From Kaistia defluvii (lineage in GTDB: Bacteria > Pseudomonadota > Alphaproteobacteria > Rhizobiales > Kaistiaceae), in assembly GCF_026343955.1 (NCBI RefSeq), contig NZ_JAPKNI010000013.1, forward strand, positions 1 through 49,192: a DNA stretch of 49,192 nucleotides. Reading direction: 5' to 3'. The number at the start of each line of letters is the position of its first letter. Position 1 is the stretch's first letter. The notes beneath the pieces are model-generated. The model had not been told where the DNA came from, searched no databases, and was given only the letters and a program-made list of their open reading frames with translations. The translations under genes and the position numbers were made by a program. This document shows, piece after piece, positions 19,312 through 27,776 of the stretch.

Positions 19312-20205
19312 TCAACTGGCCTCGGCAGATTCGGAATAGGGCAGCGAGGCGGCCAGGATCCAGGCCTGGAACGCCCGCATCGCGGGCGTGGGCGCGGAGG
19401 ATTTCAGCCAGGTCAGCCAGTAGCAGCCATGGGTGACAAAGGTCTGGAACGGTTGCTGGATGGCGCCTGCGGCCAACTGGCGCTGGAACATCAGCGGCGG
19501 CGCCAGCGCCACGCCGGCGCCGAGGATGGCGGCCTCCACCATCGTGCGCGACGAGTCGAAGATCGGCCCCTTCACGGTCGGCGCCGCGATGCCGGCGGCG
19601 GCGAACCAGCTTGGCCATTCGTCGGCCCGGTAGGAGCGGAGCAGCGTTTCGCCATGCAGATCCTGCGGCTGCGCCAGCCGCTCGGCGATCTCGGGGATGC
19701 AGAGGACCGACAGAGGAGCGGCGAACAACCGCTCGGCCTCTGTGCTGTGCCAGGCTCCGTCGCCAAAGCGGATGGCGAAATCGAGCCCCTCGGCGGCGAT
19801 ATCGACGCGGTTGTTGTTGGTGGAAAGGCGAAGGTCGATGAACGGGTGCGCGCGCTGGAACGCGGGCAGCCGCTCGATCAGCCACCCCACCGCGAAGGTG
19901 CCGACCACGCCGACATTGAGCACCTCGCGGACATGGCCGCCTTCGAACTGCTCCAGCACGCCCGCGATGCGGTCGAAGGAATCCCGCAGCGCCGGCAGAA
20001 GTGCCTGACCTTCATCGGTCAGCGCCAGTCCGCGCGGCAGGCGGCGGAACAAAGTCGAGCCGAGGCGTTCTTCCAGCGACTTGACCTGGTGACTGACGGC
20101 GGCCTGCGTCACCGCCAGTTCGATCGCCGCGCGTGTGAAGCTCAGGTGGCGGGCGGAGGCCTCGAAGGCCCTGAGCGCGTTCAGAGGCAAATGCGGGCGA
20201 ACCAT
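19312..20205 (-). CDS. ampR: LysR-family regulator, AmpR/GcvA type
   Basis: A 297-residue LysR regulator whose N-terminus (VRPHLPLNALRAFEASARHL, then SFTRAAIELAVTQAAVSHQV) is of the AmpR/GcvA kind. The effector-binding domain follows from about residue 90. AmpR senses murein fragments and activates a divergently transcribed beta-lactamase gene; exactly that layout is present, with a beta-lactamase starting 103 bases away. The symbol is inferred from sequence style and context. GcvA-like regulators share the same motif, so this is likely rather than proven. Confidence 0.82.
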   Translation of the reverse strand: MVRPHLPLNALRAFEASARHLSFTRAAIELAVTQAAVSHQVKSLEERLGSTLFRRLPRGLALTDEGQALLPALRDSFDRIAGVLEQFEGGHVREVLNVGVVGTFAVGWLIERLPAFQRAHPFIDLRLSTNNNRVDIAAEGLDFAIRFGDGAWHSTEAERLFAAPLSVLCIPEIAERLAQPQDLHGETLLRSYRADEWPSWFAAAGIAAPTVKGPIFDSSRTMVEAAILGAGVALAPPLMFQRQLAAGAIQQPFQTFVTHGCYWLTWLKSSAPTPAMRAFQAWILAASLPYSESAEAS

Positions 20206-20239: not shown

Positions 20240-20308
20240 TTATCATCGTTTGTCGTGCTTTGGCGAGTGACCTACCAAGGGGCATCCCAAGCAACGGAGA
20301 TGGTGCGA

Positions 20309-21142
20309 ATGATCGACAGGCGGCAGTTTTCCAAGGGTTTTGCGCTGGCGGCGGGAGCAGCCCTTTTGGGCGGTCCCGGCTTCGCCACCGCGGCGCTGGC
20401 ATCAGAGAAATTCGTGTCCACGGTGTTGGTCGACGTCGAGAGCGGCGCCGCGATCCATCGCGAAGGCTCGGCGGAACGTCGTTTCGCGCCCTGTTCGACC
20501 TTCAAATTCCCGCTGGCGGTGATGGGCTTCGATTCCGGCGTGCTGACCGATCCGCACCATCCGAGATGGGAGTACCGGCCAGAATTCCAGACCACGATGG
20601 AACAGCAGAAGAAGGCGACCGACCCGACGATCTGGCTTCGGGATTCGATCGTCTGGTATTCGCAGGAACTGACCCGCAAGCTCGGCGAGGCGCGCTTCCG
20701 CGACTACGTCGCCCGCTTCGGCTATGGCAATGAGGACGTTTCCGGCAATCCCGGCAAGAAGGATGGCTTGACCCAGTCCTGGCTGATGTCGTCGCTGGCG
20801 ATCTCGCCGGACGAGCAGGTCGCCTTCGTGCGCCGCTTCCTCGATCGCAAGCTCGGCGTCTCCGACCATGCCTATGAGGCGACGCTGGCAAGCCTGGCGC
20901 AGTATCCGGCCGAAGGTGGCTGGACGCTGCATGGCAAGACGGGCAGTGGCTTCCTGCGCGACGCGAAGGGCGCGATCGATCGCAGCAAGCCGCTCGGCTG
21001 GTTCGTCGGCTGGGGAGAGAAGGACGGCCGCAGGATCGCCTTCGCGCGCTTCAATCTCGGCAATGAACGGTCCAAGACCTATGGCGGCATGATCGCCCGC
21101 GACGCGATGGTGAAGGATTTCGCCAGGCTGGCCGCGGGCTGA
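20309..21142 (+). CDS. Class D (OXA-type) beta-lactamase with Tat signal
   Basis: A 278-residue serine beta-lactamase. All class D landmarks are present: catalytic Ser63 with Lys66 in PCSTFKFP, the S-x-V element in RDSIVWYSQ, the YGN motif in FGYGNEDVSG, KTG in LHGKTGSGF, and the C-terminal GWFVGWGEKDGR. The N-terminus MIDRRQFSKGF followed by an Ala-rich hydrophobic stretch is a twin-arginine signal, so export folded through Tat is predicted. The ATG at 20309 has ACGGAGA upstream. It is divergent from an AmpR-like gene. The hydrolysis spectrum cannot be read from the sequence. Confidence 0.93.
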   Translation: MIDRRQFSKGFALAAGAALLGGPGFATAALASEKFVSTVLVDVESGAAIHREGSAERRFAPCSTFKFPLAVMGFDSGVLTDPHHPRWEYRPEFQTTMEQQKKATDPTIWLRDSIVWYSQELTRKLGEARFRDYVARFGYGNEDVSGNPGKKDGLTQSWLMSSLAISPDEQVAFVRRFLDRKLGVSDHAYEATLASLAQYPAEGGWTLHGKTGSGFLRDAKGAIDRSKPLGWFVGWGEKDGRRIAFARFNLGNERSKTYGGMIARDAMVKDFARLAAG

Positions 21143-21349
21143 AGAGGGCCAGGATCGGCGGGAAGCGGAATAGCCGCTGGATTTCCGGCGGTTTCCGTCA
21201 CATTTGGGCAGGGCGTCTTGAATGGCGTCCTGCCATCGTATAGCCGTCTCGCACCGGCATTGTCGGCCGGTGGCGGGGTTCCGGATCTCGCCTTCTTTCA
21301 GCCCAACCGCTTACCCGCGTTCGTCTGCGGGAGTGAGCAGGAGACAGAT

Positions 21350-23320
21350 ATGATCAATCTGACATTTCCCGATGGTTCCGTTCGCCAGTTCGAAGCCGGT
21401 GTGACCGGCAAGGCGATCGCCGAAGGCATTTCCAAGTCGCTCGCCAAGAAGTCGGTCGCCATGACCCTCGACGGCGTGCTCTCCGACCTCTCCGACCCGA
21501 TCACCCGCGACGCCAGGCTTGAGATCGTGACGCGCGATGACCCGCGCGCGCTCGAGCTGATCCGCCATGACGCGGCGCATGTGATGGCCGAGGCCGTGCA
21601 GGAGCTGTTCCCCGGCACCCAGTGCACCATCGGCCCGGTTATCGAGAACGGCTTCTTCTACGATTTCGCCCGCAACGAGCCCTTCACGACCGAGGACCTG
21701 CCGAAGATCGAGCAGAAGATGCGCGAAATCATTTCGCGAAATGCTCACTTCACCAAGCAGGTCTGGTCGCGCGATTACGCCAAGAAGGTCTTTTCCGACA
21801 AGGGCGAGGCCTACAAGGTCGAACTGATCGACGCGATCCCCGAAGGGCAGGATCTCAAGATCTACAACCAGGGCGACTGGTTCGATCTCTGCCGCGGCCC
21901 GCACATGGCCTCGACGGGCCAGATCGGCTCCGCCTTCAAGCTGATGAAGGTGGCCGGCGCCTATTGGCGCGGCGACAGCAACAACCCGATGCTGACGCGC
22001 ATCTATGGCACCGCCTGGCATGACCAGGTCCAGCTCGACGCCTATCTCCACATGCTGGAAGAGGCGGAGAAGCGCGACCACCGCAAGCTCGGCCGCGAGA
22101 TGGATCTGTTCCATTTCCAGGAAGAGGGCCCGGGCGTCGTCTTCTGGCACGCCAAGGGCTGGACCATGTTCCAGGAGCTGATCTCCTACATGCGCCGCCG
22201 GCTGCGCCCGCTTGGTTACCAGGAGGTTAACGCGCCGCAGCTGCTCGACAAGTCACTCTGGGAAACGTCGGGCCACTGGGGCTGGTACAAGGAGAACATG
22301 TTCGCGGCGACCTCGGCAGGCGACGACACCGAGGACGAGCGCGTCTTCGCGTTGAAGCCGATGAACTGCCCCGGCCATGTGCAGATCTTCAAGCACGGCC
22401 TGAAGTCCTATCGCGACCTGCCGCTGCGCCTTGCCGAGTTCGGCGCGGTGCATCGCTACGAGCCCTCCGGCGCGCTGCATGGACTGATGCGGGTTCGCGG
22501 GTTTACGCAGGACGACGCGCATATCTTCTGCACCGAAGAGCAGATGGCCGAAGAGTGCCTGAAGATCAACGACCTGATCCTCTCGACCTATGCCGATTTC
22601 GGCTTCGACGAGATCGTCGTGAAGCTTTCGACGCGTCCGGAAAAGCGCGTCGGCTCGGATGAGAACTGGGATCATGCCGAAGAGGTCATGACCAAGGTTC
22701 TGAAGACGATCGAGGAACAGTCGGGCGGCAAGATCAAGACCGGCATCCTCGAGGGCGAGGGCGCGTTCTACGGTCCGAAGTTCGAATATACGCTTCGCGA
22801 CGCGATCGGCCGGGAATGGCAGTGCGGCACGACGCAGGTCGACTTCAACCTGCCGGAACGCTTCGGCGCCTTCTATGTCGATTCCGACAGCAACAAGAAG
22901 ACGCCGGTGATGATCCACCGCGCCATCTGCGGCTCGATGGAACGCTTCCTCGGCATCCTGATCGAGAATTTCGCCGGTCACTTCCCGCTCTGGTTCGCGC
23001 CGCAGCAGGTCGTCGTCACGACGATTACCTCGGATTCGGATGCCTATGCGGAGGAGGTCTGCGCCAAGCTTCGCAAGGCAGGTCTTCGCGCCGAGGTTGA
23101 TCTTCGCAATGAGAAGATCAACTACAAGGTCCGCGAGCATTCGGTCGCCAAGATCCCGGTGATCCTGGTCTGCGGCAAGCGCGAGGCGGAAGAGCAGACG
23201 GTGAACGTGCGTCGCATCGGTTCGCGCGACCAGGTGTCGATGTCGCTGGACGAGGCGATCGCGTCGCTGGTGGCGGAGGCGACGGCGCCGGATCTGGTGC
23301 GGGCTCGCGCCGAGGCCTGA
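21350..23320 (+). CDS. thrS: Threonyl-tRNA synthetase
   Basis: A 656-residue class II synthetase. It has an N-terminal TGS domain (about 1-62), an editing domain with [16 protein letters not shown], a catalytic core with the zinc cysteine in [10 protein letters not shown] and the motif-2 region [17 protein letters not shown], a motif-3 region ([13 protein letters not shown]), and a C-terminal anticodon-binding domain. It is full length. The ATG at 21350 has CAGGAGA. A strong hairpin terminator follows the stop. In many Rhizobiales thrS directly follows yidD; here a four-gene block lies between. Confidence 0.98.
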
Positions 23321-23350: not shown

Positions 23351-23379
23351 AACGGCCGGGGTTTCCCCCGGCCGTTTTT
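23351..23379 (+). terminator. Rho-independent terminator of thrS
   Basis: ACGGCCGGGG (23352-23361) pairs perfectly with CCCCGGCCGT (23366-23375) across a TTTC loop and runs into a T-tract. It lies 31 bases after the thrS stop. Because it is nearly symmetric (AA before, TTT after), it may also slow minus-strand readthrough. Confidence 0.9.
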
Positions 23380-23422: not shown

Positions 23423-23857
23423 TTACGGGCCCCAAGAGAAGCTGAGACCGCCGGTGCCGGCCGTGCTGCCCTGCGACGAGCCGCCCGAGGTTCCGCCGCC
23501 GCCATGGCCACCGAAGAAGCCGGAGCCGCCGCCACCGCCATGATAGTCGCTGCCAGCGCTGCCCGACGAGCCGCCAATGCCGCCGGCGACGCCGAGCGAA
23601 CCCCAGCTGTTGCTCGAGGATGCGGTCGTGGTGGTGGAGTAGCTGTCGGACGAGCTCGTGCTGGCACCGGTGCCGCCGCCGCCGCCGCTGACGAGACCAC
23701 CCGAGCCGCTGCCGCTGCCAGTCGACGACGTCGAGGACGTGCCGCCTGCCGTCTGCGTGGCGGAGCTGGATGCCTGCCCGGCCATGGCCGAAGCGGACGC
23801 AATTACGAACAATGCGGAAGTAGCAACACCGATGAGAATATTACGGTATGAGGACAT
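23423..23857 (-). CDS. Secreted Ser/Gly/Thr-rich low-complexity protein (cluster gene 4)
   Basis: A 144-residue protein with a signal peptide (MSSYRNILIGVATSALFVI, cleavage near AMA-G). The mature part is almost only Gly, Ser and Thr, with runs of four or five glycines. It ends FSWGP and contains no cysteine. No enzymatic motif is visible, so it is likely an extracellular structural or matrix protein. It is the last of four tandem minus-strand genes of similar make-up. Its ribosome-binding region AAGGGAGTTACACT resembles those of the other three. I do not recognise a family. Confidence 0.7.
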   Translation of the reverse strand: MSSYRNILIGVATSALFVIASASAMAGQASSSATQTAGGTSSTSSTGSGSGSGGLVSGGGGGTGASTSSSDSYSTTTTASSSNSWGSLGVAGGIGGSSGSAGSDYHGGGGGSGFFGGHGGGGTSGGSSQGSTAGTGGLSFSWGP

Positions 23858-24027
23858 AGTGTAACTCCCTTGGTTTAATGCAACATTTCACTTCTTGTTC
23901 TGGCTTCCCGCGCACTAAGCGCAAGTCGCACTTCCTATTATAATGAATAATCAGGTTATTGAAAATAAAGTCTGTTGATATTTCCGTGATGCGCAATTCA
24001 TGTGTCGATTTATATTTATGCAGAGAT

Positions 24028-24609
24028 CTATTTTCTGAACTCGCAATAGTATTGCCATTGCTTTCTTTGATTCCAGGTCCTGGGTTTGAAATTCGCGCAA
24101 TTGATGTCGGAGGACCCGCCACCGCCGCCAAACAGGCGTGCAAGAAAGCCGTTGGGATTGGGCGTCGGCCCGGGTCCTGGGTCAGGCCCCGGGCCCGGAC
24201 CGGGGTCGCCTCCCGGGCCTTGCGTATAGGCCCATGCGAATGTCCCGACCTTGGCCGTTTGCGTCGCTGTCGCCGAGCCACCGTCCCAGCCATTTCCGGT
24301 CGAGTTGGAGCCGCCATAGGCGAGGCCCTGGGCGGTGCCGGTGCCGGAGGTGGAGGCGTTCGCGTTGCTGGTTGAATTGCCGTTGGCGCCGGCGCTGGCC
24401 GATCCGCTGCCACCGCCGCCATTCGAGCTGCCGCTCGAGGTGTTGGAGGCACTGGCCGAGCCGGACGGACCGGATGAGGAAGCGCTCGAATGGCTACCGC
24501 TGCTGCTGGAAGCAGAGCCGGCTGCAATCGAAACATCGCTGAAGGCGAACAACGAAAGAAGGGCAGCAGAGCTTACGAGCGATAGTCTGGTGATGGAACC
24601 GGAACGCAT
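24028..24609 (-). CDS. Secreted Ser/Gly/Asn-rich protein with Pro-Gly stalk and two-Cys tail (cluster gene 3)
   Basis: A 193-residue exported protein. A signal peptide (to about SIA-A) is followed by a Ser/Gly/Asn/Thr-rich stretch of about 100 residues. Then comes a PG/PGPD repeat at about residues 135-153 that should form a stiff stalk, and a final basic-aromatic tail: C, 17 residues, C, ending KQWQYYCEFRK. A similar tail ends the next gene upstream. The ATG at 24609 with GGGGAG is preferred over one at 24636. No known domain is recognised; a surface or matrix role is a guess from composition. Confidence 0.72.
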   Translation of the reverse strand: MRSGSITRLSLVSSAALLSLFAFSDVSIAAGSASSSSGSHSSASSSGPSGSASASNTSSGSSNGGGGSGSASAGANGNSTSNANASTSGTGTAQGLAYGGSNSTGNGWDGGSATATQTAKVGTFAWAYTQGPGGDPGPGPGPDPGPGPTPNPNGFLARLFGGGGGSSDINCANFKPRTWNQRKQWQYYCEFRK

Positions 24610-24705
24610 GATCAAAACTCCCCTAATCGTTCCCATCGAGGAACGGCAATGAATTTGGACGATCGTGTGCAGGTCAGCCGAACCGTTGCCTGGAACGGAC
24701 GGATG

Positions 24706-25041
24706 TCAGGGCTGGGCGGTATCGCAGCGGTACTGCCACTGCCTGAGGTCGCCATTCTCCCGCCTCCACTCGACGACCATGCAGCTTGTAATGTCGCCGG
24801 ATCGAGTGGTCGTGATGGTCATGCCGTGGTCGCCATTGCTCTGGGTCCAGGCCGAGGCGCTGCTCTGAGTGGTCGACCCCGCTCCCGGAGGCAGCGTCTC
24901 CGCGCCGTGCAGCCAGGACGTCGGATCGTCGGCAAGGCCTCGGTTGCTGGCGCCGGCGCTTGCGACGCCGAGGGCCAGAAGGCCGGTGGCGAGACCGATC
25001 GAGAGGCGGGAGATCGAGCGCTTATTGACGATGCTACTCAT
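24706..25041 (-). CDS. Small secreted protein with two-Cys tail (cluster gene 2)
   Basis: A 111-residue exported protein. The signal peptide has a basic N-terminus (NKRSISRLS) and cleavage near ASA-G. The mature part has a short Ser/Thr-rich segment (TTQSSASAWTQSNGD) and ends in a C, 18 residues, C tail with RQWQYRC, very like cluster gene 3. It lacks the long low-complexity region and so may represent the minimal form of the family. The ATG at 25041 has TGGAGTT. It begins 40 bases after the stop of cluster gene 1. Not a recognised family. Confidence 0.72.
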   Translation of the reverse strand: MSSIVNKRSISRLSIGLATGLLALGVASAGASNRGLADDPTSWLHGAETLPPGAGSTTQSSASAWTQSNGDHGMTITTTRSGDITSCMVVEWRRENGDLRQWQYRCDTAQP

Positions 25042-25081
25042 GATGGAACTCCATCCGTTTTCTTGTTCTTGGCGGTGCGCC

Positions 25082-26014
25082 CTAGCGGTTGCGGAAGGAT
25101 TGGCAGAAGAGGGTCTTCTGCTTCTGGCTCCACACGCAGTTGGCAACGCCCTTGTCTCCGCCGAGGCTCGCGATGCGGACGCTCTTCAGGCCGCTCGTGC
25201 TCTTTCCGAAATTGGCGCTGGCGTAGGAACTGCTCTGGGCGCTCGACACGCCATTGGGGGTCTTGCCCTTGGCGGACGCGGTTGCCCGGGCCCATGCCGT
25301 CGCACTCGTCTTGTTGGCCTGGGCGAAGGCCGTGGCCGCCGCCTTGGCCGCCGAATAGACGTCCTTGGCGGTGAACGCGCTGCCCGAGGCGAAGGTGCTC
25401 GACATCGCGGTGGCGCTGACCCGGTTCGAGATGGCGATCGAATAGGTGCCAGTGTCGGTATAGGCGATCGACATCGACCCGCCGCCGCGCAGCTTCCGGT
25501 TCACGACCGTGCCGCCGTTCGCCGACGTCTTGTTGTTCTTGCCGCCAATGGCGGTGGCGCTGGTTTCCGTGCCCGCGGCGGTATAGGCCGTCGGGGTTTC
25601 ACCGGCGGTCGCGACAGCGGTGACGGTTGTTCCGGCCGTCGCCGAGGTGTCGTCCGTGGGGGTCGTTGCCGTGGCGCCTGCCGAACCGGTCGCGGAGGAC
25701 CAAGCCTGCATCGTGCCGCCTTCATTGGAGACGCCAGCGGTGGCGCTGGTGCCGGCCCCGGCACTCGTGGCGGAGCCGCCTTCCGACTGGGAGGTCTGGG
25801 CGCCGCTGCTGCTGGTGCTGGAGGAGGAACCGCCTCCACCGTCATCGGAAGTTCCGGTGCTGGCGGCACTTGGGGAACTGCTGTGGCCGCTGTGACCGGA
25901 ACGTGGGCCCGCGAAAGCTAGCGATGGGGCGACGACCAGCAGAACCGTTGCGAGGGCAATAAACCGCGATGTCTGCCCAACAATATGGGCAAACGCGTCC
26001 ATTCGCCGAAACAT
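25082..26014 (-). CDS. Secreted Ala/Ser/Thr/Gly-rich protein with two-Cys tail (cluster gene 1)
   Basis: A 310-residue exported protein, the first of the four. A hydrophobic signal (IALATVLLVVAPSLAFA) is followed by about 60 Ser/Gly residues. A long Ala/Thr/Ser-rich region follows, with strand-forming alternation and scattered Tyr (for example SMSIAYTDTGTYSIAI), then an Ala/Lys region. The tail has C, 10 residues, C (KQKTLFCQSF), which aligns loosely with the QWQY-C tail of genes 2 and 3. The promoter for the cluster should lie in the 742-base gap upstream. No known domain was recognised. Confidence 0.72.
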   Translation of the reverse strand: MFRRMDAFAHIVGQTSRFIALATVLLVVAPSLAFAGPRSGHSGHSSSPSAASTGTSDDGGGGSSSSTSSSGAQTSQSEGGSATSAGAGTSATAGVSNEGGTMQAWSSATGSAGATATTPTDDTSATAGTTVTAVATAGETPTAYTAAGTETSATAIGGKNNKTSANGGTVVNRKLRGGGSMSIAYTDTGTYSIAISNRVSATAMSSTFASGSAFTAKDVYSAAKAAATAFAQANKTSATAWARATASAKGKTPNGVSSAQSSSYASANFGKSTSGLKSVRIASLGGDKGVANCVWSQKQKTLFCQSFRNR

Positions 26015-26756
26015 GATATGAACCCCTTAGCCAAAATTCAAAATACAAAAGCGATCGAGCGAAGTTCCCTGCCAGATACTCGCTCTACAGCCCGCAAAGT
26101 TACTGCATATCTATCTCGTATTGAAGGGCATGGCGGCTGCGACAATGCTCAAGTATTCATTGAAAACTGGTGCATCTCGCTGGGTCAGGTAAAGAACTGG
26201 TCTGGATGGATGGGTGAAGAATCCCGGGCCGGGTACTGGATTAGTTATGCGCCTTGACCGGATTCTCCATTCGGCGGCGGGCAGACGGCGGGACGGAAAC
26301 TATCGATTGTTTCAAATTTCGTTGGTTCGCCAAATCGGCGGGCGGTCGGCTCTGAAAAGAATTATGTCTAGATTGTGGCGGCTTATTCGTCTGACGAAAT
26401 GACACCCGATAGAGCGCTATGGTTGCGCTGGTGTGTAACGAAGTTGTGAGGAGGTGAGAGACCGCCGGCAAATTCGACGGTCGCTTTACTTCCAGGATCG
26501 GAACAACTGGCGTCTCAGGCGCTTGCCGGAATCCCGGTGCACAGAAAACGCGTGTTTCGCTGGCGATAAGATTGTGAACGAGATCACAGCATGGTGACGC
26601 TACGGCATGTCGGGCGAAAGTAAATCCGAAGACTTGAAGGTAAAGCGAGGCGATGAAGGTCCGGGATCGCCGGGGGATGCGCAAGCCGATGGCGGCCGCT
26701 CTGTGAAGCCGAGTCGCTCCAGACCAGCGGACCCAATCCCGAAGCGAGCCGCCGGC
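26015..26756. other. 742-base gap without a recognised gene
   Basis: The part from 26020 to 26450 is AT-richer than the rest of the window and probably carries the promoter and upstream control of the secreted-protein cluster. Open frames on both strands (up to about 147 codons) have no signal, motif or good ribosome-binding site and look accidental. A small non-coding RNA cannot be ruled out. Confidence 0.45.
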
Positions 26757-27776
26757 CTATTTTGCCAGGACTTCGATTTCGCGGTTGAGACCGGGCTCGA
26801 CCTTGAAATTCCGCTCGTGGATCTGGTTGTCGTGCTTGGCGATCGCCGTATAGTCGCCGATGGCCAGGATCACGTTGGGGAAGGCGCCGGCGCTGTCGAA
26901 TACGGTCTCTCCGGCAGGGGTCATCACCGTCCAGGAGGTGTTGGCGAGAGCCTCGCCGCCACTCTCCGATACCAGCTTCAGCGTGATGCGCGCAGCCTGG
27001 TGGAACATACGCACTTCGGTCAGCTTGCCGGCCTCGACAACGATATCTGCGCGGGCAATCGCGTTGGCGTCGCCATAGCGGCTGACGATGTGGTAGGTGC
27101 CGGCATTGAGGCGGACGATCTGGTCGTCGCGCAAGGCGGGCACGAGCGGGCTGCGCTCCTCGCCCCCGGCACCATCACCCGGAAAGATGTCGAACTTGAC
27201 CAGATTGGGTAGGGGCGCCAGGTCCTTGCCGACCAAGGCGTCGAGCTTGAGCCCCCCCGCATTGAGGACGAGAGTCTCGTATTCGTCACCGCCGGCGACG
27301 TTGATCTGCTTCATGCCGCCGGCGCGCCCATAGGCGGCGTGCACGACATAGTTGCCAGGCTTCAGCGGCATGGTGACCGCGCCGCCCTCGACCTCGCGGA
27401 TGAGCGGCAGCTTGCCGTCCTTGCCGGGCGTCTTCGAGAAGACGCGCCAGACCACACCCTTCGGAATGGTGGGGCCGCCATCGAGCAGCTTGGCTTCCAG
27501 CATCAGGCCGGGCTGTGGCCGGCTCTCGGTCGCGCGCTGGTTGGTCAGGTCGCCCTTGCCGGTCTTGAGCAGCGCGGCGGGATCGATCCTGTCGGGCAGC
27601 AAGGGCGCCAGCAGCAGCGGATCCGCGGGCGCGGCGCCATCGGGAATGTCGGCGGGCGGAATCGGCGGCGCATCCTGGGCCAAGGCGGATGTGGCGGACA
27701 GCGCAAGGGCGAACGCGGCCGCGGTGCCAGCCATCCGGGCCTGCCGCAGCATCCAGTGTGAAGCGTTCGCGCGCAA
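26757..27776 (-). CDS. Periplasmic protein with three beta-repeat units, function unknown
   Basis: A 339-residue exported protein. A signal peptide (AAAFALALSATSALA-Q) is followed by a Pro/Ala-rich linker. Three similar units then open with G-x-Y (PGNYVVHAAYGRAGG; AGTYHIVSRYGDANA; IGDYTAIAKHDNQIH), each followed by a valine-rich strand with a glycine turn. This resembles PEGA or carboxypeptidase-regulatory-like beta-sandwich repeats. Homologues with no assigned function are common in Rhizobiales. The frame opens with a TTG at 27776 that has a GGGGA element; ATGs at 27752 and 27734 are alternatives. It is divergent from the nitroreductase gene. Confidence 0.75.
   Translation of the reverse strand: MRANASHWMLRQARMAGTAAAFALALSATSALAQDAPPIPPADIPDGAAPADPLLLAPLLPDRIDPAALLKTGKGDLTNQRATESRPQPGLMLEAKLLDGGPTIPKGVVWRVFSKTPGKDGKLPLIREVEGGAVTMPLKPGNYVVHAAYGRAGGMKQINVAGGDEYETLVLNAGGLKLDALVGKDLAPLPNLVKFDIFPGDGAGGEERSPLVPALRDDQIVRLNAGTYHIVSRYGDANAIARADIVVEAGKLTEVRMFHQAARITLKLVSESGGEALANTSWTVMTPAGETVFDSAGAFPNVILAIGDYTAIAKHDNQIHERNFKVEPGLNREIEVLAK

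Follow-up and report, generated by a model that had tools for sequence, protein, structure and literature searches.

Curli subunits (CsgA/CsgB, with CsgG) are Sec-exported, beta-rich subunits of matrix fibers, and silk fibroins and spidroins combine an extended chain of alternating Ala, Ser, and Gly with a small terminal part that contains disulfides. Proteins of the PEP-CTERM and GlyGly-CTERM types have a C-terminal transmembrane segment followed by a basic cluster. In the Fap system, a Cys-X-X-Cys stands at the C terminus of FapC in several species, and FapE likewise has a C-terminal Cys (PMC3684753, consulted parts). The short chaplins D, F, G, and H have two Cys residues that can form an intramolecular disulfide; ChpH substitutions impair assembly in vivo, and reduction is without effect on fibrils in vitro (PMC5618249, consulted parts). 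Here, we describe a cluster of four minus-strand genes (genes 1 to 4) from Kaistia defluvii, located on contig NZ_JAPKNI010000013.1, whose 49,192 nucleotides (nt) make up the whole stretch analyzed (the window) and which is one of 21 contigs of a 4.9-Mb genome. Judged from its sequence, the locus is a lineage-restricted, uncharacterized cluster of secreted proteins with a terminal module—a predicted hairpin holding two Cys residues—and a predicted function. The genes and their C-terminal tails are as follows (aa, amino acids).

25082..26014, minus strand: gene 1, 310 aa, exported; Ser/Gly/Thr/Ala 61%; alternating Ala; C-x10-C tail
24706..25041, minus strand: gene 2, 111 aa, exported; small predicted C-terminal beta-meander
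24028..24609, minus strand: gene 3, exported, Ser/Ala/Gly-rich; Pro-Gly stalk; C-x17-C tail; first-listed ATG at 24636
23423..23857, minus strand: gene 4, 144 aa, exported, Gly/Ser-rich; no Cys; conserved terminal SWGP
25103..25138, minus strand: gene 1 tail, C293-x10-C304 (CVWSQKQKTLFC); predicted hairpin strands 290-296 / 301-306, low confidence
24724..24783, minus strand: gene 2 tail, C87-x18-C106 (CMVVEWRRENGDLRQWQYRC); predicted hairpin strands 84-95 / 98-108, Asn-Gly turn
24043..24099, minus strand: gene 3 tail, C-x17-C (CANFKPRTWNQRKQWQYYC); diverged in K. granuli (G019)

Conservation of the cluster in Kaistia

A first-pass annotation, made from the DNA letters and their translations, had described four open reading frames (ORFs) on the minus strand, and we found all four at the coordinates it gave. 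Searches with genes 1, 2, and 3 each hit one identical set of 6 genomes among the 28 of the family; these 6 are all Kaistia (6 of 14), and gene 4 stood at the same place in all six carriers when the loci were read. In every carrier, K. adipata among them, the gene order is identical and the cluster is bordered by the same pair of genes. Gene 1 of the window shares 59 to 77% identity with its five relatives over whole proteins, gene 3 shares 48 to 86%, and gene 4 shares 64 to 96%; for gene 2, identity was 49 to 63% with three relatives and 54 to 64% over the matched part with all five. The ratio of nonsynonymous to synonymous change (dN/dS, from mean proportions pN and pS over 15 pairs) was 0.304, 0.335, 0.260, and 0.335 for genes 1 to 4, pointing to purifying selection on all four proteins. 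Since six of the 14 Kaistia genomes carry all four together and in order, and dN/dS is near 0.3, the genes are real, co-inherited, and syntenic. The first-pass annotation had made its case depend on the tail occurring in other genomes; five other Kaistia genomes carry the cluster. In a tree of the protein encoded by one flanking gene (13 rows, midpoint-rooted, with draft genome G021 dropped, whose contig breaks inside the gene), the six carriers formed one side of a branch with support of 100/100, in what is a tree of one neighboring gene and not of species.

The four genes lie in the order 1-2-3-4 on the minus strand between thrS (plus strand, ending at 23320) and a flanking gene at 26757 to 27776, with intergenic gaps of 40 nt (genes 1 and 2), ~96 nt (genes 2 and 3, with gene 3 starting at 24609), and 170 nt (genes 3 and 4). 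The ATG at 25041 is the probable start of gene 2, as orthologues lend no support to a longer, TTG-started ORF that overlaps gene 1, and orthologue starts make the ATG at 24609 the probable start of gene 3.

Composition and export signals

In all 24 proteins (24/24), a hydrophobic stretch lies within the N-terminal 45 residues; past residue 40 there is no comparable stretch, the highest 15-residue hydropathy there being ≤1.14 in every case. The signal peptides reported in the first-pass annotation were therefore borne out as signal-like hydrophobic N termini in 24 of 24 proteins. The same annotation had described four low-complexity proteins, and the Ser/Gly/Thr/Ala-rich bodies are indeed present, with combined fractions of these residues of 0.61 (gene 1), 0.45 (gene 2, calculated on the longer ORF), 0.57 (gene 3), and 0.76 (gene 4), but gene 2 is the least low in complexity of the four. 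Compared with shuffled sequences, Ala is enriched at lag 2 in genes 1 and 3 (mean z of 3.9 and 3.4, respectively) and negative at lags 1 and 3. Such alternation fits an extended beta strand that has small residues on one face, a silk-like pattern.

Two-Cys tails

The spacings C-x10-C, C-x18-C, and C-x17-C reported earlier for genes 1 to 3 are all correct, but 6, 5, and 4 residues follow the last Cys, so the proteins do not end at that residue. Across the six carriers, each product of genes 1 to 3 has exactly two Cys residues beyond its signal peptide, and both fall among the final 26 residues (18/18 proteins). Extra Cys residues were seen only in ORF starts called too far upstream or in a signal peptide (K. 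adipata gene 2), and the six gene 4 proteins contain no Cys. The tail changes more slowly than the body in gene 1 (pN of 0.138 versus 0.229) and in gene 2 (0.099 versus 0.323). Ungapped identities between tails were left out of account, as insertions displace the tails relative to one another.

A codon pattern specifying W-Q-Y-x-C-[D/E], defined only once the tails were known, occurs at exactly two sites in the 4.9-Mb genome—the tails of genes 2 and 3—with none in the reversed control. The motif WQYRC is kept by gene 2 in all six carriers, and gene 3 tails from five genomes read QWQYYC, EWKYHC, QWQYYC, QLAYQC, and QWEERC, with the motif lost in K. granuli. The exact QWQY-x-C core that the first-pass annotation saw in genes 2 and 3 is accordingly present in the source strain but is a strain-level feature, since gene 3 varies across carriers. 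Profile comparison of tails 2 and 3 with hhalign gave a probability of 78.9% (P = 1.6e-5) over 12 columns. Of the diverged paralogous family of three proposed earlier, then, a weak likeness between tails 2 and 3 stands, but tail 1 is not detectably related and gene 4 has no tail. Because gene 3 tails drift and tail 1 is unrelated by profile, two Cys residues closing a terminal hairpin may plausibly be a shared design rather than the mark of one family, with common descent plausible for genes 2 and 3 only.

AlphaFold2 models were built from 4-sequence alignments for genes 1 and 2. The gene 2 model contains a four-strand meander (residues 56-108), with a block-mean predicted local distance difference test score (pLDDT) of 79 to 87 over residues 71-110 and a mean of 58.9 over the whole chain. 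Its strands 84-95 and 98-108 pair around Asn96-Gly97, and the Cys positions have the same residue sum as the paired strand ends (87 + 106 = 95 + 98 = 193), so C87 and C106 are predicted, with good confidence, to be cross-strand partners. By the same reasoning, C293 and C304 of gene 1 are predicted to face each other in a hairpin of strands 290-296 and 301-306 (293 + 304 = 296 + 301 = 597), here with low confidence. In both cases, the register was derived from DSSP strand ends and is a prediction rather than a measured bond.

Searches beyond the genus

At E ≤ 0.001, the gene 2 tail profile matched 5 of 397 Hyphomicrobiales genomes and gene 1 matched 6 of 397, all of them Kaistia. One of the gene 1 matches, in G024, contains six internal stops, overlaps ordinary genes, and is probably due to chance; the sixth carrier, G026, was missing from the matches and evidently lies outside that sample. 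At the looser threshold of E ≤ 0.1, the gene 1 tail gave matches in 27 of 397 genomes, 5 being clusters; for the gene 3 tail the figure was 36 of 397, with 4 clusters, and the search missed the diverged tail of K. granuli. Weak matches outside the clusters fell at 58 places (22 for the gene 1 tail and 36 for the gene 3 tail; E of 0.0011 to 0.1), and the 32 of these 58 that were examined yielded no secreted Ser/Gly-rich protein with a two-Cys tail. Some short frames—for example, L084 (55 aa), L079 (148 aa), and L091 (40 aa)—have two or three Cys residues near the end and look motif-like by eye, but with Ser/Gly/Thr/Ala fractions of 0.10 to 0.29 they were attributed to chance. So was L072 (67 aa), the sole frame on the matching strand with a fraction above 0.5 (0.55), which has three Cys residues near its end and is Arg/Pro-rich. 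A weak match in G016 reads as an isocitrate-lyase-like enzyme, and a second match to gene 3 in G017 (E = 7.8e-5) is a different Ser/Gly/Pro-rich ORF lacking the two-Cys tail.

Gene 1 matched only the source genome in a class-wide sample of 279 genomes and three loci, all in Kaistia, in a scan of a contig collection. Plasmids gave no match for genes 1 and 2, phages none for gene 1, and viral contigs none for gene 1 or the gene 2 tail. The whole of gene 3 was searched within the family, and gene 4 was examined at the cluster loci. Low-complexity bodies lower the sensitivity of such searches, in which, among the matches listed, at most 5 (397-genome set) and 8 (279-genome set) candidates per genome were scored. 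The profile search of the tail called for by the first-pass annotation thus recovered tails in other Kaistia but no convincing relative beyond the genus in the sets searched, and within these sets the cluster appears restricted to one group of Kaistia.

None of the four proteins had a Pfam match at E ≤ 1, and Pfam, NCBIfam, and the PDB gave nothing credible for the cluster proteins. A gene 1 match to exopolyphosphatase in NCBIfam (E = 0.0041; 16.4 bits against a cutoff of 307) is probably compositional. Foldseek comparison with the PDB returned nothing at E ≤ 0.001 for the gene 1 or gene 2 model, and openly licensed literature on Kaistia, functional amyloids, and low-complexity or disulfide proteins contained no description of these proteins that we could find. 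The earlier statement that no described system has this makeup is in line with our searches of family and structure libraries, none of which gave a credible match.

In a separate observation, the peptide FFARLFGGG, which precedes the tail in gene 3, recurs in three large ORFs (frames of 558 to 666 aa) of other Hyphomicrobiales (L101, L102, and L104, at 1501-1548) with weak E values; this recurrence may reflect either chance or a shared linker.

A variable site

In the eight Kaistia genomes without the cluster, the interval between thrS and the flanking gene is nearly empty in three (G015, G016, and G020, with ~16, 474, and 75 bp between tblastn match ends), holds other genes in four, and is broken in G021, a 720-contig draft. 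The contents include a papain-like protein in G025, other ORFs in G022, and a giant Ser/Gly/Thr/Ala-rich ORF in each of G018 (L108/L058) and G024 (L059). The G018 ORF (2776 aa) has a signal-like N terminus and a beta-barrel-like C terminus ending in RYNW, had no Pfam match over the 2681 aa scanned, and reads like an autotransporter. Because the interval is nearly empty, otherwise filled, or occupied by a giant ORF in noncarriers, this is a variable site at which sister species hold another protein, probably a surface protein. The flanking gene at 26757 to 27776, present in 14 of 14 Kaistia genomes, is a fixed neighbor of this site.

Proposed function and alternative explanations

A structural or matrix role appears to be the best fit to the composition of these proteins, which probably form part of an outer coat or biofilm, a function that we infer. 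We tentatively favor, as quite possible, a Kaistia-specific cluster of four secreted structural proteins, capped by disulfide-stapled hairpins, that assemble at the cell surface or in a matrix. All four proteins would be exported by Sec, and periplasmic oxidation would close an intramolecular disulfide between the tail Cys residues. Each stapled hairpin would then be a stable knob ending an extended, assembly-prone chain. Packed together at the cell surface or within the matrix, such chains could form a fiber or coat in which the hairpin ends dock or nucleate and the gene 4 protein serves as a Cys-free filler. This silk- or amyloid-like reading draws support from the features described above (shared gene order, purifying selection, the two-Cys rule, slowly changing tails in genes 1 and 2, Ala alternation, and the predicted Cys register), from the autotransporter-like ORF of G018 at the same site, and from the G024 giant ORF of like composition. 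It is more speculative, and rather doubtful, that one Kaistia group invented a silk-like extracellular material of several components, in which dissimilar chains acquired stapled hairpins convergently and are exported without a known fiber-export machine.

Several results weigh against the structural explanation. Confidence in the gene 1 model is low (mean pLDDT of 42, with the tail below 50), and the model has a helix rather than a strand at residues 216-248, within the Ala-rich body. Gene 4 lacks the Ala alternation, and most of gene 2 is predicted to be a small beta-domain, not a low-complexity polymer. Tail 1 compared with tail 3 at a probability of only 3.5%, and with tail 2 at 0.2%. In gene 3, the tail changes faster than the body (pN of 0.289 versus 0.211), with the K. 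granuli divergence at least part of the cause. No exporter gene is present in the four-gene cluster, and a search for CsgG (PF03783) gave 0 of 14 for Kaistia, whereas its control on 14 named genomes was positive in 4, including Caulobacter and Escherichia coli; this result argues against a curli route.

The absence of an outer-membrane exporter from the cluster and of CsgG matches from the 14 Kaistia genomes, together with the fact that only signals of the Sec type are evident, would also suit proteins that stay in the periplasm, for example in envelope stress or packing, and form no external structure. Such a location seems unlikely, given that a sister species has what is probably a surface protein at this site and that the cluster proteins have long Ser/Gly/Thr/Ala-rich bodies and a Pro-Gly stalk. 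Bodies and stalks of this kind are typical of extracellular proteins. Equally improbable is the idea of the first-pass annotation that the tail Cys residues form intermolecular disulfides and cross-link the proteins into a network. Two Cys residues near the C terminus of three co-encoded proteins fit that idea, and FapC and FapE offer a precedent, intermolecular bonding having been suggested, though not shown, for the FapC Cys-X-X-Cys in the consulted parts of PMC3684753. However, the number of Cys residues is even in every mature protein, and an intramolecular bond is favored because the Cys pairs lie in cross-strand register in the predicted hairpins.

The tails might instead be recognized by a candidate outer-membrane machine that exports the proteins or retains them at the surface, as their C-terminal position and their conservation in genes 1 and 2 would allow. 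We give this little credence, since tail 1 differs in sequence from tails 2 and 3, gene 4 has no tail, and neither the cluster nor the scanned neighbors hold a gene for such a machine. The absence of any hydrophobic segment beyond the signal region also argues against the anchoring or sorting role once proposed for the tails, at least in the manner of membrane-anchor sorting tails. A chance gathering of four functionally unrelated small exported proteins is just as hard to credit: the interval is variable in Kaistia without the cluster, tail 1 has no detectable homology to the other two, and gene 4 has no tail, yet all four genes are kept together in the same order in 6 of 6 carriers and share their composition, and genes 1 to 3 obey the two-Cys rule.

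Under the structural explanation, a link to biofilms is circumstantial. Kaistia sp. 32K and K. adipata feature in published work on biofilms in co-culture and on a polysaccharide factor (PMC7563137 and PMC7226442, consulted in part); this work offers strains and assays, but the parts consulted do not connect it with the cluster. The factor through which Kaistia accelerates Methylobacterium was reported as a protease-insensitive polysaccharide of 5 to 10 kDa (PMC7226442, same parts) and is therefore not one of these proteins. Homology-based annotation misses low-complexity matrix proteins, so many are probably unknown, and the present set is compact, bounded to one lineage, and has a clear module in the predicted stapled hairpin. 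If the proteins form fibers, the cluster may serve as a small model for the origin of a bacterial structural material and for its exit without a curli-type exporter.

Flanking genes and candidate signals

The following features surround the cluster.

26757..27776, minus strand: upstream flanking gene, uncharacterized, with a signal-like N terminus; marks the site, outside the system
23937..23965, minus strand: promoter-like site 5' of gene 4, TTTTCA-17-TATAAT, 10/12; consensus match only
23351..23376, minus strand: terminator-like hairpin 3' of gene 4, 11 pairs, 9 of them G-C; consensus match only
21218..23320, plus strand: thrS, convergent flank, named by reading of the sequence; start is a mechanical ORF start; outside the system

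The upstream flanking protein had no Pfam match. In the scanned region, two promoter-like matches were found versus 0.6 expected, and four terminator-like hairpins versus 3.3 expected. An AT-rich stretch 5' of gene 4 (~23930-24000), which overlaps the promoter-like site, has a core (ATCAC..AAATATCAACAGA..TTCATTT) largely common to the six carriers and is a possible regulatory element. Upstream of gene 1 (~26014-26170), the blocks TTCAATAC, ATG-AGTA, GGCAGGG, and AGGGGTT-A-ATCATG are likewise largely common to the six, and the block with the lowest G+C content in the window table is 26001-27000 (0.56). Beyond thrS, a LysR-type regulator gene (19312-20205, minus strand) adjoins a divergent gene (20255-21142, plus strand) whose product has a penicillin-binding/transpeptidase match and reads as class D beta-lactamase-like (STFK motif); a similar-looking ORF adjoins thrS in G024 (L109:6675-7589).

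Comparison with known systems

Unlike the subunits of curli or of the Caulobacter CsgG-type exporter system, the four proteins have no Pfam match and come from a genus in which CsgG was not found (0 of 14 genomes). Their tails differ from those of PEP-CTERM and GlyGly-CTERM proteins in having no membrane segment, and NCBIfam gave no match of either type. Silks are eukaryotic, and their likeness to the cluster is an analogy of design only. The Fap system of Pseudomonas (FapB/FapC/FapE) resembles the cluster in that several Sec-exported fiber components are encoded together. However, Fap repeats are Gln/Asn/Ser-rich, whereas the cluster proteins are Ala/Ser/Thr/Gly-rich without Gln/Asn repeats, have a Cys spacing of 10 to 18, and lack a Pfam match. 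The fap operon also includes the FapF pore, the FapD protease, and FapA, none of which was seen in the cluster or the neighbors scanned, the rest of the genome not having been searched for Fap. The chaplins of Streptomyces are, like the cluster proteins, a set of small secreted proteins, in their case paralogues that coat the cell, but they are Gram-positive and different in sequence; none of the four proteins matched the chaplin domain in Pfam or a chaplin family in NCBIfam, and in the cluster the Cys pair would cap long chains. On sequence grounds, the cluster fails as a member of curli or of the chaplins and, by its repeat type, as a member of Fap. By analogy, the nearest described designs appear to be the Fap amyloids and the chaplins.

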